From Stenotrophomonas raiganjensis (SeqCode) (GTDB lineage Bacteria > Pseudomonadota > Gammaproteobacteria > Xanthomonadales > Xanthomonadaceae), in contig NZ_JAUTXR010000163.1 of NCBI RefSeq assembly GCF_030658505.1, positions 43,512 through 107,511 on the forward strand: 64,000 bases of DNA. The letters run 5' to 3'. The notes beneath the pieces were generated by a model. That model had not been told where the DNA came from, did not search any database, and saw nothing but the letters and a program-made list of their open reading frames with translations. How positions within the stretch are numbered: the first letter of the stretch is position 1; the number at the start of each line of letters is the position of its first letter. Below, piece after piece: positions 40,537-45,674 of this stretch. The translations under genes were made by a program, and so were the position numbers.

Positions 40537-40803
40537 GGGAATCCAGCCTGTGGTTGCAATTGCACCATTCTAGGCCTTTGGCCACGGGACCGGTCACGCC
40601 CGATGCATGCGTTCTGTCCGCCCAAGCCACGCAGGCCTGGACATCGTTTCCCTGCCGGCCAGGCCCGGCCATCACGTCCTCGGACGTGCGACCGAGGGCT
40701 ATTGATTCTCGCCGCCATCAGTAGCACTCTCCCATTCACGAAAAATTCATGGTGACCGCCCCGACGGCACAGGTCACCGCGCACGCTGATTCAAAAAGGA
40801 ATT

Positions 40804-40845
40804 TGGACGTTGTGTCCAGATTGGCCGGCTCACTCGGTCCGGCCA
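40804..40845 (+). promoter_or_regulatory. Two inverted repeats upstream of the peptide operon
   Basis: TGGAC-N5-GTCCA (40804-40818) followed by TGGCCGG-N10-CCGGCCA (40822-40845), 45 bases before the peptide start. They could be an operator plus a leader hairpin. No clear -35/-10 pair is seen in the 353-base gap. Confidence 0.4.
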
Positions 40846-40889
40846 CTGATCGCTGTATCCAATTGGAATGGAAAATCAGGATGGGTTCT

Positions 40890-41066
40890 ATGGCATTGGA
40901 TGTCGCAGGCCTTGAAGCTGGGATGCTGCAGAGGGCCGATGACGCAACGTCGATTGGCACCGCATTTGAAGTGGTGAGGAATGGTGCGGTAGCGCTGTTC
41001 TGCTCGGACTGTTGCGGCAGCAACGGCAATGACTGCGTGCCGGAAATCGGCCCGGGCATCAACTGA
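40890..41066 (+). CDS. Small peptide with Cys-rich tail; candidate precursor
   Basis: 58 residues. An amphipathic, leader-like N-terminal part (MALDVAGLEAGMLQRADDAT, then SIGTAFEVVRNGAVALF) ends in a 21-residue tail with four Cys (38, 41, 42, 49) rich in Gly, Ser and Asn: CSDCCGSNGNDCVPEIG + PGIN. It has no signal peptide and no double-Gly site. AGGA eight bases upstream supports this ATG; an ATG at 40881 lacks a spaced RBS, and the frame to 40749 has no RBS. It is the first gene of a lower-GC operon with modification/export-like genes, so a ribosomally made, modified and exported peptide is the working idea. No named family was recognised. Confidence 0.6.
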   Translation: MALDVAGLEAGMLQRADDATSIGTAFEVVRNGAVALFCSDCCGSNGNDCVPEIGPGIN

Positions 41067-41073
41067 CGCAGAT

Positions 41074-41103
41074 CGAGGACGAAGGCGGTTGCCTTCGCCC
41101 TCG
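41074..41103 (+). promoter_or_regulatory. Intergenic hairpin (processing/attenuation site)
   Basis: A 13-bp stem with one mismatch (CGAGGACGAAGGC at 41074-41086 with GCCTTCGCCCTCG at 41091-41103) and a GGTT loop starts seven bases after the peptide stop. There is no T run, so it is not a classical terminator. Such hairpins can stabilise the upstream message and lower read-through, giving more precursor than downstream enzymes. Confidence 0.65.
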
Positions 41104-41124
41104 TCACTACCAGGAGCACGTTCC

Positions 41125-41334
41125 ATGGATGGATGCAACGCGCCGGAGGCGTTCGAGCGGAAGCTTCCCGCCAACACAGGCACCGACCACGCTGGCACCG
41201 GCGCTCCTGCGCTGGCTCTGCCATCCACGCGCGCCCAACCCGACCTCATCGATACAGAACTTGAAGCCTTGATGGAAGCGATCGATACGCTTGAAGGCGA
41301 CCTCGTTGATCGGCAGGAAGGGCTTGCATGCTGA
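41125..41334 (+). CDS. Small acidic protein of the peptide operon
   Basis: 69 residues. The ATG at 41125 has AGGAG eight bases upstream. The N-terminal half is Pro/Ala/Thr-rich and probably disordered (MDGCNAPEAFERKLPANTGT..). The C-terminal half is a single acidic helix (DLIDTELEALMEAIDTLEGD, then LVDRQEG), and the protein ends in Cys (LAC). Only Cys4 and Cys69 are present. It overlaps the next gene by seven bases. It could be a second precursor, a leader-binding helper or a partner of the acyltransferase. It is not an acyl carrier protein, as there is no DSL motif. Confidence 0.6.
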   Translation: MDGCNAPEAFERKLPANTGTDHAGTGAPALALPSTRAQPDLIDTELEALMEAIDTLEGDLVDRQEGLAC

Positions 41335-42341
41335 TTCCGCAACTATTGGCCCACCTTGCGCGTCCCTTGCGCCGCCTTGATCGGCGGATTGCCTGGATCG
41401 AGTCGATCATCAAGACCCCTCTGACCGACGACGACGAGTACTACCTGCGTGTCGCTTGTGCCGAATCGGGAAACACGAAATTTGGCGAGTACTACTACTG
41501 GTACCTGCAGAAGCTCGTCGTTGCCAATGTGCTGCGCCGCGGGAACCGGTCCGAGTTCCTGTCCCAGCTCAATCGCACCGACCAAACCGACTACAGCGCG
41601 TTCGATGAACTGGCACGCACGCCACGCGGGCTTCTGATCGCGGTACCGCACCATGCCCACTATATTCTCTCGATCATCATGCTGGCGGAGCGCTTGCGAC
41701 ACCAGCGGAAAACCTTCCTGTTCTATGGGAACCCGGAAACCCATCCAGGCAATGAGATCTTCGACAGGCTCAACGGCTGGTTCTGGAACGAAGACAACGG
41801 TGTTGGCTTCGTGCATGACACCCGCAAGGGCCTGGCCACAGCCATGCGTGAACTGAGAGCCGGCGCAGCGGTCTTCATCCTGCCGGACGTTTTCAAGGAC
41901 GAGAACGCCACGTACCCCATCAGCTTCTGCAAGCGCTCGATGAGCATCATGCTCGGCACCGCCGCATTGTCCCGCAGGACCGATGCGCTGATCGTCCCGA
42001 TGATCTCCACCCCCGTCACGTCAGGCCTGGGCTTCAGGAGCGTTTTCGCACCGCCGTGCGCTGAGCCGGCACCTACAGCACAGGGCCAGTCCGAACGCAG
42101 GCTGCTTGCAGACGATTACCGCGTCATGCGCGGGCTCTTCGCCTTCTATGAACACCACATGCAGCATCAGCTGATCTACTGGCAGAACGTACGGCAACAC
42201 ATCGCCCAGAACGGCCCTCACCTTGAGGTGCCGAGGTCCGATGTGGCGCGCGTGGCCGGGCTGCTGGCCCGCGACCCCGACATGCTCGCCCCTACCGCAG
42301 TAATTGACCTGAGAAGAGACGCAACGGCACCCACATGCTGA
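41328..42341 (+). CDS. Acyltransferase-fold (LPLAT/HtrB-like) protein of the peptide operon
   Basis: 337 residues. No cleaved signal is seen, but there are basic amphipathic N-terminal helices. The core resembles lipid A lauroyl/lysophospholipid acyltransferases: RGLLIAVPHHAHYILSIIML (~100-119) lines up with the catalytic strand, and AAVFILPDVFKD ... SMSIMLGTAALSRRTDALIVPM resembles the later substrate blocks. The usual HX4D/E dyad is not intact: neither His108 nor His109 has an acid five positions on. It may act on another acceptor, or may have lost canonical activity. It overlaps both neighbours by the same sequence, ATGCTGA. Acyl transfer to the peptide is speculation. Confidence 0.65.
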   Translation: MLIPQLLAHLARPLRRLDRRIAWIESIIKTPLTDDDEYYLRVACAESGNTKFGEYYYWYLQKLVVANVLRRGNRSEFLSQLNRTDQTDYSAFDELARTPRGLLIAVPHHAHYILSIIMLAERLRHQRKTFLFYGNPETHPGNEIFDRLNGWFWNEDNGVGFVHDTRKGLATAMRELRAGAAVFILPDVFKDENATYPISFCKRSMSIMLGTAALSRRTDALIVPMISTPVTSGLGFRSVFAPPCAEPAPTAQGQSERRLLADDYRVMRGLFAFYEHHMQHQLIYWQNVRQHIAQNGPHLEVPRSDVARVAGLLARDPDMLAPTAVIDLRRDATAPTC

Positions 42342-43348
42342 AACAGAAATCACGTCTTGTGCTCCTCATTGCATTGGCGCTTCCCGCGGCGGGCATCAAC
42401 TGTGCCGCCGCCGAGGTCACCGAGCCCCCAGTGCGCACTTTGGATACCGTCGTGGTGTCCGGTGTGGCACCAGGTCCTGGACTATGGAGAGTCTCTCGTG
42501 GCGAGCACACACTCTGGATCCTGGGCACGCTCAAGCCGGTGCCATCCTCGATCACATGGGATCCGGCAACGGTGCGGGAGGTGATTGCCGAGGCTCAGGC
42601 CGTGCTGTGGGAGCCATCCTTCACCCTGGATGTCGACACCGGCTGGCTCGGCAAGCTGTCGCTTGGCTACAGCTACATGAAGGCACAGAACAATCCTGGC
42701 AATGCGCAACTCAAAGACATCTTGGCACCGGATGTGTACGCGCGCTGGCAGATCCTGCGCGACAGGTACCTGCCTGGGCGCAGGAGCCTCGAAGGCAAGC
42801 GCCCGCTTGCCGCTGCGGACGAGCTGATGTCGGCGGCGATGGCCGAGCGAGGCTTGAGCAGCAAGGGAGTAGTCGCTCCCGTCATTGTCGCCGAAGTGAA
42901 GGCGCGCGGCATCGGACTGCACATCCCTCGATACACGCTCAAGCTCTCACGCCAGAACGCCGCACAGATGCTCAAGGCAGTCAGGTCAACGTCGATCGAC
43001 GACAGCGCCTGCCTGGTCGCAACCATGGATCTTGTGGAAACGGGCATGGATCGCCTGGTAACCAACGCAAATGCATGGTCCACGGGCGAGACCACCCGGA
43101 TCGATGTATCCCTGACTTCGAAACGGGATGAACTATGCACGGACTCGCTCAGCAACGCGCCCGCCGCCCGTGCCGTTGGCATGCCCGACATCCGCACGGT
43201 GGTAAGGGAGAAATGGCTTGCGGCCGCAGACAAGGCACTGCAGGCCAACACGACGACGCTCGCGGTGCTTCCCATCGCCGACCTGTCCGGCAACGACGGA
43301 TACATCGATGCGCTGCGCCAGCGCGGATACGAGGTCGAGTCTCCTTGA
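42335..43348 (+). CDS. TraB/GumN-like secreted protein with TonB-box-like segment
   Basis: 337 residues. Signal peptide MLKQKSRLVLLIALALPAAG... with cleavage near CAAA. Shortly after comes RTLDTVVVSG (~34-43), nearly the TonB-box/plug start seen in both TonB receptors in this window (LDTVIVTG). The TraB/GumN domain follows: LWRVSRGEHTLWILGTLKPV, IAEAQAVLWEPSFTL, and a C-terminal VLPIADLSGNDGYIDALRQR ending in which the last helix reads RGYEVESP. The conserved GTxH metal-type His is replaced by Lys (GTLK, 64-67), so a hydrolytic role is doubtful. It overlaps the acyltransferase gene by seven bases. Confidence 0.7.
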   Translation: MLKQKSRLVLLIALALPAAGINCAAAEVTEPPVRTLDTVVVSGVAPGPGLWRVSRGEHTLWILGTLKPVPSSITWDPATVREVIAEAQAVLWEPSFTLDVDTGWLGKLSLGYSYMKAQNNPGNAQLKDILAPDVYARWQILRDRYLPGRRSLEGKRPLAAADELMSAAMAERGLSSKGVVAPVIVAEVKARGIGLHIPRYTLKLSRQNAAQMLKAVRSTSIDDSACLVATMDLVETGMDRLVTNANAWSTGETTRIDVSLTSKRDELCTDSLSNAPAARAVGMPDIRTVVREKWLAAADKALQANTTTLAVLPIADLSGNDGYIDALRQRGYEVESP

Positions 43349-43372
43349 ACACGCTCCCGCAGTGACCGACCG

Positions 43373-43936
43373 ATGTCGCCTCGAATGGAACGACTATCGG
43401 CGCTTTTCCTGGCATCGGCAGCGCAACTCGCCTTGCTGATCCTGCTGTGCCAGGTCGCCGGCAGGTCACCTGTGAGCGTGGGGGATGATGAAACGAGGGT
43501 ATCGCTCGTGTTCATCGAGCGTTCCCCCGCGCGGGCGCCTGTTCCTGCGGCCATGCCCCGGGCGCCGGGAAAGCCTGGCAGGGCTGCTGGTCCGGCGCTG
43601 CCTGTTGCAACTGCGACGCCCCGCAGGCCCGCGCTGGGCGTGGTCGATGAAACACATGGAACTGTGATGGCTGCTGCTCCTGCACCGCTCGACCTTGCGC
43701 TTCGTCCAGATGAAATCTCGTTCCAGCGCGCCCCCCTGACACGATCGACCCAGGCCGCGTTCCCGGCGCGCGAGCCCACATTGCAAGTGAGCGTCGAGGA
43801 CAACTCGTGGATGGGAAGGTATGCACGCATGGGGCGGAGGATGGGGTGCGCTGAACTGCGGCAGGCACTTGCATCAAATCCCGGCAGTGCCGAGGCCATC
43901 ATCAGGACGATGGAGCAGCGCAAGTGCATGAACTAG
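43373..43936 (+). CDS. TonB-like bitopic membrane protein
   Basis: 187 residues. A single N-terminal membrane helix (LSALFLASAAQLALLILLCQVAG, ~8-30, listed in two parts: LSALFLASAAQLALL and ILLCQVAG) is followed by a Pro/Ala/Arg-rich periplasmic spacer (~45-95). The C-terminal segment has two Cys in GCAELRQALASNPG ... RTMEQRKC that may form a disulfide. The layout is that of TonB-type energy transducers, but the canonical TonB C-terminal domain is not recognisable. It starts 24 bases after the TraB-like gene. Partnership with the TonB-box-like segment of that neighbour is inference. Confidence 0.6.
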   Translation: MSPRMERLSALFLASAAQLALLILLCQVAGRSPVSVGDDETRVSLVFIERSPARAPVPAAMPRAPGKPGRAAGPALPVATATPRRPALGVVDETHGTVMAAAPAPLDLALRPDEISFQRAPLTRSTQAAFPAREPTLQVSVEDNSWMGRYARMGRRMGCAELRQALASNPGSAEAIIRTMEQRKCMN

Positions 43937-44121
43937 CCATCGTCATGGTGCTTCCAACTGACAGAAGCACCCGGTATGAGTAACGCCTTCAGGAAGGCCA
44001 TGCCGGTGGCTCCCTCGCCGTTCCCATCGCTGCACGGGGCAACCGTGGCCTGGATCTGAACAGCCTGGAGAAGATCGACAATATCTTCCTGACACTGGCC
44101 CTGATTTCAGTAGCGATTGGT

Positions 44122-45654
44122 GTGTCCACGGCAATGCGGGTCTACTTCATCAATCGCCTCGCGGACGAAGTAACCAATGACCTGCGGGGGCAGTTGTTCT
44201 CACGATTGCTCGTCCAGCCACTGGAGTTCCATCAGCAGCAACCCTCGACGGAACTGCTTTCACGATTGACCTCGGATATCGAGCACCTGCGGATCGCCAT
44301 CGGGGTCAGTTTCTCTGTGGCGGTACGCAGCGCAATCATGCTGGCCGGTGCAGTCACCATGTTGTTCGTGACCGACCCCGGACTGGCGCTGCTGACGATC
44401 GCGGCCATCCCGTTCGCATCGATTCCCATCGCCGTAGGCGCCAAGCATTTGCGGGCCAGCGCACGCGACTACAACGACCTGCTTGCGCAATCGCGTGTCG
44501 TTGCGGCCGAAGCGCTGGGCCATATCAGGGCGGTGAAGGATTTCGCCCGCGAATCCTTCGAGACGCAGCGCGATGCGGCGACGCTCGATGCCAGCGTCAG
44601 CGGAGCTCGTCGGCGCACGACCTGGCAGTCTGTACTGACGGCATTGTCATTGATCGTGATGCTGCTGGGCATCACCGCTGTGTTATGGACAGGCACCCAC
44701 AAGGTCATGGACCGGACGCTCTCGGCGGGCCAGCTGGGACAGTTCGCCATGTATGCCGTGATGTGCGGCATGGCCGCCGCCGCGCTTCTGGACACATGGG
44801 GCGCGCTGCAGCGCTCCGCCGGAGCGACTGATCGCATCACCGCATTTGGTGACCTGCCACACCATGAGGCGCAGGAAACCAGGCGGGTGCAGGCTCTGCA
44901 GGGATGCATCCGATTCGAGAATGTCGATTTCTGGTATGCCGCTGCGCCCGACAGGCCCGTCCTGCGACGCTTGAACCTGGACATTGCGAAGGGGGAAAAG
45001 GTCGCCATCGTGGGCGCTTCCGGCGCCGGCAAGAGTACGCTGCTGTCGCTCCTGCTGCGCCTGCACCCCGTGCGTGCGGGCGCCATCTTCATCGACGGCC
45101 ACGATATCTCCACGTTCCAGCCGGCAAGCATCCGCAACGCCATCGGCACGATCTCGCAGACGCCAGCGATTTTCGGCCGATCCGTGCTTGAGAACATCCG
45201 ATACGGCAAGCTCGACGCTACCGACGAGGAAATCAGGAACGCAGCAGTGTCTTCAGGCGCAGATGCCTTCATCAATGAATTGCCCGCTGGCTGCGATGAG
45301 CCCTTGGGCGAACGCGGGGCCCGATTGTCAGGCGGCCAGCAGCAGCGGGTAGCCATTGCACGCGCACTGTTGAAGCAGGCCGATATCCTGCTGCTCGACG
45401 AACCGACATCGGCCCTCGATTCGCACGCCGAACAAGCCGTACATGACCATGTTTTCGGCACGGGCACCGGACCGACCACCCTCATCGTCGCACACCGGTT
45501 GCAGACCATTCTTGCCACCGATCGAATCGTGCTCATCGATGAAGGTGCGGTCGCCGCCACCGGATCGCACGAAGAACTACTGATCCGCAGCGCCCGATAC
45601 CGCGATTTGATCAGGCCGCAGATGCAGACCACGTTCGAATGGCAACCACCCTAG
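44122..45654 (+). CDS. ABCB-type exporter, N-terminally truncated (possibly a pseudogene)
   Basis: 510 residues from GTG 44122. TMD with the coupling region LADEVTNDLRGQLFSRLLVQ ... SRLTSDIEHLRIAIG, then an NBD with Walker A GASGAGKS (~298-305), LSGGQQQR and ILLLDEPTSALDS. It resembles MsbA-related bacterial exporters. Coding similarity continues upstream in frame to 43984 (SLAVPIAARGNRGLDLNSLE, IDNIFLTLALISVAIG), but this part has no ATG/GTG/TTG and is closed by TAA at 43981. Only 45 bases separate it from the previous gene, so TM1 (~35-50 residues) has been lost. Translation from 44122 would also cut TM2. It is probably inactive unless an unusual start is used. Confidence 0.75.
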   Translation: MSTAMRVYFINRLADEVTNDLRGQLFSRLLVQPLEFHQQQPSTELLSRLTSDIEHLRIAIGVSFSVAVRSAIMLAGAVTMLFVTDPGLALLTIAAIPFASIPIAVGAKHLRASARDYNDLLAQSRVVAAEALGHIRAVKDFARESFETQRDAATLDASVSGARRRTTWQSVLTALSLIVMLLGITAVLWTGTHKVMDRTLSAGQLGQFAMYAVMCGMAAAALLDTWGALQRSAGATDRITAFGDLPHHEAQETRRVQALQGCIRFENVDFWYAAAPDRPVLRRLNLDIAKGEKVAIVGASGAGKSTLLSLLLRLHPVRAGAIFIDGHDISTFQPASIRNAIGTISQTPAIFGRSVLENIRYGKLDATDEEIRNAAVSSGADAFINELPAGCDEPLGERGARLSGGQQQRVAIARALLKQADILLLDEPTSALDSHAEQAVHDHVFGTGTGPTTLIVAHRLQTILATDRIVLIDEGAVAATGSHEELLIRSARYRDLIRPQMQTTFEWQPP

Positions 45655-45674
45655 TGCGCCACCCGCAGAACAGG

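Follow-up and report, generated by a model that had tools for sequence, protein, structure and literature searches.

Gene content and site of the operon

A window of 64,000 nucleotides from Stenotrophomonas raiganjensis (the whole stretch of DNA analyzed here, on contig NZ_JAUTXR010000163.1) was examined in order to follow up a first-pass annotation, made from the sequence alone, which had proposed a peptide operon between nadE and sucCD. The window genome (G000) is a draft assembly of 4.7 Mb in 192 contigs. Six tightly packed plus-strand frames, here termed A to F, lie between nadE and sucD and begin with a gene for a short cysteine-containing peptide (A), followed by a protein of unknown type (B) and a relative of the lipid A acyltransferase LpxL (C) (Table 1). 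B and C overlap by 7 bases (41328-41334), as do C and D (42335-42341). The operon as first described stands in its packing, overlaps and flanking genes, but two of its six genes are damaged copies. The predicted 58-residue frame with four Cys is present at 40890-41066; translation might instead begin at an in-frame ATG at 40881, and the mechanical open reading frame (ORF) starts at 40749. For B, whose mechanical ORF begins at 41029, the start at 41125 is our choice.

Table 1. Features of the nadE-sucD interval in the window.
Feature	Coordinates	Strand	Evidence
Inserted segment, approximate limits	40573..45673	.	blastn of both flanks against 18 operon-free sites; homology ends here
A, 58-aa precursor-like peptide, class I tail FCSDCCGSNGNDCVP	40890..41066	+	homologous peptides upstream of B and C in 18/18 clusters
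Hairpin directly 3' of A	41071..41105	+	stable stem at the same place in 15/17 clusters tested
B remnant, 69 aa from the preferred ATG	41125..41334	+	in-frame 465 bp absent at 41234/41235 versus three orthologs
C, LpxL-like acyltransferase relative, 337 aa	41328..42341	+	catalytic His kept, Glu replaced by Ile
D, TraB/PrgY/GumN-family protein, signal-like N-terminus	42335..43348	+	no conserved His or Glu
E, one N-terminal membrane helix (by eye), Pro-rich stretch, two invariant Cys	43373..43936	+	no Pfam match
F, MsbA-like ATP-binding cassette (ABC) exporter, N-terminally truncated	44122..45654	+	91 bp absent at 44009/44010 versus three orthologs

In all 18 other Stenotrophomonas genomes tested, nadE and sucD are adjacent and about 180-950 bases apart, a gap too small for the operon. 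The operon occupies the nadE/sucD site in four genomes (G000, G001, G096 and G100), the named relatives at this site being S. maltophilia SJTL3 and an uncultured Stenotrophomonas metagenome-assembled genome. Furthermore, 4 of the 18 genomes with an operon-free site have a related cluster at another location (G033, G013, G086 and G073). The GC content of the operon (0.58-0.66) is below that of the nadE side (0.65-0.73) but similar to that of sucCD (0.60-0.65), so the lower GC reported at first is a one-sided contrast.

Alignment of the window with three same-site orthologs (L009, L017 and L018) revealed two segments missing from the window copy only. B, about 224 aa in the orthologs when read from the preferred ATG, has lost 155 codons, and the supposed small acidic protein is thus a deletion remnant of B. 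The segment absent from the start of F is not a multiple of three and the frame is lost, leaving an ORF that is truncated relative to orthologs of 585 aa; the assignment of F as an exporter was upheld. One genome read alone, in its damaged state, misnames two genes. A draft-assembly fault is a possible source of both missing segments, while repeat-mediated deletion was rejected on the basis of flanking identity of just 0-1 base. With these parts of B and F absent, the window copy probably makes no finished product and, judging from its sequence, is probably inactive. Apparent frameshifts were also seen in B of L031 (L031:8209-8863) and C of L034 (L034:7348-8347), damaged copies in two other genera, and visible lesions thus occur in 3 of 18 clusters.

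Distribution of the cassette and conservation of the peptide

The core of the locus is a three-gene cassette of peptide A (45-64 aa), B and C, which was found in 18 distinct genomes across nine genera, all within the window's family. In every one of the 18 clusters the gene for a small peptide comes immediately before B, with C next in line, and the three genes are linked at unrelated sites except where neighbors are shared. Searches with C matched 8 of 91 genomes of the genus and 10 of 398 genomes of an order-wide draw. G449, among the latter, was rejected and not counted, as it has an ordinary LpxL with HX4E and the profile found no B. A search with B matched 11 of 395 genomes of the family, including two new ones (G922 and G950), and missed the window genome, as expected from its B deletion. 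In a class-wide draw C matched only the window genome (1/369 at E <= 1e-12). The co-occurrence expected from the first-pass annotation holds for the peptide with B and C, but the TraB-like D and the exporter F are optional, with D in 8/18, E in 12/18 and F in 7/18 clusters. D and F were seen only alongside class I peptides (defined below), and E is present in six of the seven class II clusters, the exception being L037, whose contig runs out about 670 bases past C. All-against-all comparison of 15 loci yielded no further coding family common to more than three of them.

C had no match in a plasmid collection of 72,556 records. With regard to defense systems, PADLOC gave no match for B to E and only ATPase-type matches for F, and none of A to E matched a PHROG phage family. 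The cluster of G013 (L012) adjoins genes resembling filamentous phage, and the single IMG/VR match is a contig (L062) that holds the same stretch with phage-like genes beside it. L030 and L032, from two genera, have a common neighborhood (around 6.5-9.1 kb) that by eye reads bamA-lpxD-fabZ-lpxA, an outer-membrane and lipid A region. Near the G033 cluster, L011:9592-11781 looks by eye like a TonB-dependent receptor gene, which is not common to other clusters.

The peptides fall into two classes. Class I (11 genomes) ends in variants of SDCCGSN: FCSDCCGSNGNDCVP in the window clade and G033, CSDCCGSNGNDCAP in G327, SDCCGSNNY in G086, G073 and G349, SDCCSSNNY in G412, and SDCCGCRNN in G147. Class II (7 genomes) has a C-terminal CTW, CHF or CLF. 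Across 16 aligned peptides the sole invariant column is one Cys. The L037 peptide has a single Cys, and it is uncertain where the L020 peptide begins. By eye, a leader pattern [LIF]E..[MIL] is present in 13/18 peptides. Of 14 non-redundant peptides, 12 were recovered by leave-one-out profiles with E values no worse than 5e-5; L036 (E 0.25) and L037 (E 11) were missed.

It had been anticipated that the leader would be conserved and the tail hypervariable. In the window's class the relation is reversed, with mean pairwise identities of 32% for the leader and 79% for the nine tail residues (28 pairs), where the tail limits were set by us around CC and this choice favors tail identity. The corresponding class II values are 32% and 48% (15 pairs). 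Retention of the class I tail over several genera suggests a single, defined product that has a fixed role, such as a signal, metal binding or a function at the envelope.

The hairpin noted downstream of the peptide gene was recovered (z = -2.2 over 60 nt), and a stem of z -1.9 or lower lies within 60 nt 3' of A in 15 of the 17 clusters tested. The exceptions are L030, where a strong stem lies just past 60 nt, and L031, with none significant. A T run follows the stem in L032, L036 and L037. Hairpins between precursor and enzyme genes are a common arrangement. Between the window and the three orthologs, A has 1-2.5 synonymous differences over about 40 sites versus 39-54 over about 247 in C, suggesting that A is also constrained at the RNA level. 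The dN/dS of A is uninformative (0.52-1.17 on 1-2.5 synonymous changes, with none in one pair). The window stretch 40790-41066, which comprises A and the sequence upstream, is 93-98% identical to the three orthologs, above the rest of the operon.

The LpxL relative C and the accompanying proteins

C is an altered ACYLTRANSFERASE relative. The first-pass assignment of an acyltransferase fold was borne out by Pfam Lip_A_acyltrans (PF03279), which was matched by 14/14 members of our C alignment (A3) at E <= 0.01; the window C alone scores 19.2 bits, under the curated cut-off of 22.3. In a profile alignment to A. baumannii LpxM, PHHAHYI of C falls on PHFGTW-E127 (Ala at E127 in 5knk). His108 and Asp187, the Asp of the PD motif, are invariant in 14/14 C proteins. 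The E127 position holds I or V in the same 14, I in L017 and L018, L in L051 and V in L052, such that the catalytic HX4E motif is not kept, its Glu being replaced in 18/18. Glu is kept in 6/6 ordinary relatives whose alignments cover the site. By our count in one gapped alignment, the position of R159 is W, F, A or I in 14/14. As described in part of PMC6286764, H122 of LpxM contacts D192 and E127 pairs with R159, and Ala at H132 or E137 of E. coli LpxL cuts activity about 1000- and 3000-fold, respectively. In C the His-Asp contact thus seems to be kept and the Glu-Arg pair to be gone. Acylation of a peptide by C is possible, against which stands the loss in C of the catalytic Glu found in its relatives.

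B had no Pfam match better than E 0.04 across 13 members, and its invariant columns are F84, D86, E111 and S188. A reading of B as a second lysophospholipid acyltransferase-like protein, proposed from motifs that look alike by eye, was rejected at a profile comparison probability of 0.5%. D matches TraB/PrgY/GumN (PF01963) at E 3e-25, as first annotated, and two relatives match too. Catalysis by active TIKI enzymes relies on a set of 2His/2Glu (PMC6254334, in part), but across six members of D no His or Glu is invariant; from its residues D seems non-catalytic. E had been called TonB-like, a label not supported by Pfam, which gave no match, including to the TonB family domain, in any of 10 members. 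For F the best NCBIfam model was MsbA_rel at 527 bits, below the curated cut-off of 780, among the best 25 of 202 matches; a C39 peptidase domain is absent in four intact relatives. D and E both look periplasmic.

A phylum-wide draw revealed a C relative in G1353, a genome of another gammaproteobacterial family, at 7e-30. Of the 299 genomes drawn, 14 matched; besides the window genome and G1353, the other 12 did so at 7.9e-10 or weaker and, examined in part, were taken as ordinary acyltransferases. Among 116 genomes drawn from the family of G1353, this C relative was present in G1353 only (absent in the other 115). At this locus (L063:6355-10841) two nearly identical Cys peptides, 46 and 45 aa long, are encoded in tandem and share the tail WKCTCTIEN; one is followed by a stem (z -4.2) and the other by none (z 1.8). 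The C relative has A at the E127 position and an alpha/beta hydrolase beside it. A 415-aa protein matches the daptide intramembrane protease model (3e-31) and YydH/LiaK (5e-15), both below cut-off. Daptides are ribosomally synthesized and post-translationally modified peptides (RiPPs) from which an intramembrane peptidase removes the leader, with a leader motif ELExMEAP (PMC10036551, in part). The protease match beside the C relative connects a protein of the C type with RiPP machinery in a family other than the window's, and L063 is likely a RiPP cluster of its own. A 304-aa protein in the place of B was tried as a B homolog and rejected, as its hhalign score of 22.2, versus 12.6-19.9 for five shuffles, was not significant.

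A tree was generated from 18 C proteins, 17 from the clusters plus that of L063. Peptide classes I and II lie on the two sides of one branch (support 92/95), present in 94% of bootstrap trees; shuffled labels reach such a split in 1/500 (class I) and 0/500 (class II) cases. This result is weakened by long branches and by near-copies in class I.

Possible function and relation to known systems

Taken together, the linkage and conservation described above make it likely that the locus is a peptide-maturation cassette. That C modifies the tail of A seems somewhat probable, and that the change consists of acylation is a tentative proposal, which we rate short of even. A would serve as the precursor: its helical N-terminal leader would dock on the machinery, and the change would be made in its short Cys tail. 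B and C would form the modifying unit, in which C, with its rebuilt active site, would most likely move an acyl group onto the tail. The preferred acceptor would be the invariant Cys thiol of A (S-acylation), since less assistance from a base is required for a thiol than for the hydroxyl acylated by LpxL. Where F is present, the product would cross the inner membrane through this MsbA-like exporter. Periplasmic handling could then fall to E, joined in part of the family by D. As a whole, a RiPP-like cassette in which B and C modify the Cys tail of A and F exports the product is our best explanation, held at nearly even chances. Its most specific form would be a new RiPP class, in which a lipid A-type acyltransferase relative, with Glu and probably its Arg partner turned hydrophobic, acylates the conserved Cys thiol with the aid of B, an MsbA-type exporter flips the lipopeptide, and periplasmic E and D hold it; this version is doubtful.

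Several observations weigh against the RiPP-like cassette. Neither a product nor a modified mass of A is on record. A Glu needed for normal LpxL activity is replaced by I, V or L in every C, B has no known fold, and structure models were too poor to use (mean pLDDT, the predicted local distance difference test score, of 45 and 39). The window copy itself is without parts of two genes, and the 304-aa unknown of L063 is not demonstrably B. No leader protease is common to the window-family clusters among the 15 loci compared. Profile matches between the peptide classes are weak, the best being that of the class II profile to L032 (3e-6), with the rest at 0.005 or worse (L031 0.065 with the same profile; L012 0.005, L033 0.011 and L051 0.14 with the class I profile). 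Lastly, the scarcity of synonymous changes in A fits an RNA role as well.

That scarcity is the best support for reading A as a regulatory leader ORF, in which ribosome stalling at Cys (or Trp) codons controls the hairpin and hence transcription of B to F. Cys codons are indeed followed by a stable stem in 15/17 clusters, and by T runs after some stems (L032, L036, L037). Amino acids are nonetheless conserved in non-Cys residues of the tail and in the leader over 45-64 codons, the L037 peptide has one Cys only, and G1353 has a pair of tandem copies, identical in their tails, ahead of a daptide-type protease gene, leaving attenuation a quite unlikely account of A. An operon that remodels envelope lipids through C and F, with A as an unmodified small membrane or secreted peptide regulating or binding it, would suit the nearness of C and F to lipid A enzymes and exporters, the periplasmic look of D and E, and the position of the L032 cluster just upstream of an lpxD-like gene (by eye). 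Yet A is in all clusters while F is absent from 11/18 and D from 10/18, no C keeps the LpxL Glu, and the tail class tracks the C tree; lipid remodeling is improbable to the same degree as attenuation.

The remaining alternative retains a modified peptide and changes the chemistry: B and C would make a different change, for example cyclization or a thioester or thioether at Cys, either with new chemistry at the C site or with B as catalyst and C as scaffold. Loss of the HX4E Glu in all members, together with replacement at the R159 partner position in 14/14, resembles a paired rebuild of the site, and B, of unknown type, is always present. Conversely, the invariant His and Asp, which correspond to H122-D192 of LpxM (PMC6286764, in part), argue for a working acyl-transfer site, and the R159 assignment comes from a single gapped alignment. 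Such other chemistry is considered unlikely.

No description of such a cluster or its relatives was found in the literature, as covered by open-license PMC papers. In comparison with known systems, C resembles LpxL and LpxM in matching PF03279 in 14/14 members and in keeping the catalytic His and the PD motif Asp, and differs in its lost Glu (18/18), its weak match and its linkage to a Cys peptide and B. The RiPP-like cassette proposed here, if that proposal is true, would have acylation of a ribosomal peptide in common with selidamides and other fatty-acylated RiPPs. Selidamides use GNAT-type maturases, and no match to GNAT, the type expected of a selidamide maturase, was found by Pfam among the six window proteins. 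MsbA-type exporters are the nearest relatives of F, with a score below cut-off among the best 25 of 202 matches and, in the window, a missing N-terminus. D shares PF01963 with the TIKI/TraB family but is without the 2His/2Glu set described for active TIKI enzymes in part of PMC6254334. Daptides, as partly described in PMC10036551, are alike in their short precursor with a leader and in the protease match of the G1353 cluster. They differ in that the genes shared by the window-family clusters include no such protease and the six window proteins have no daptide oxidoreductase or aminotransferase match (for F, among the best 25 of 202 NCBIfam matches).

RiPP clusters are usually recognized by known maturases. 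Consistent with the first-pass annotation, no lanthipeptide, YcaO, radical SAM, lasso or graspetide maturase was found in Pfam or NCBIfam for the six window proteins (for F, among the best 25 of 202 matches), nor any such class-defining maturase among the shared neighbor genes of 15 loci, and maturase-based mining would probably pass these clusters by. The general RiPP layout, a precursor gene with a leader and a short tail beside putative enzymes, is present in 18/18 clusters, where the only always-present enzyme-like genes are C and B, both always linked to A and neither matching a known maturase family. If C does modify the peptide, it would represent a new fold in peptide chemistry, a housekeeping lipid enzyme turned to peptides.

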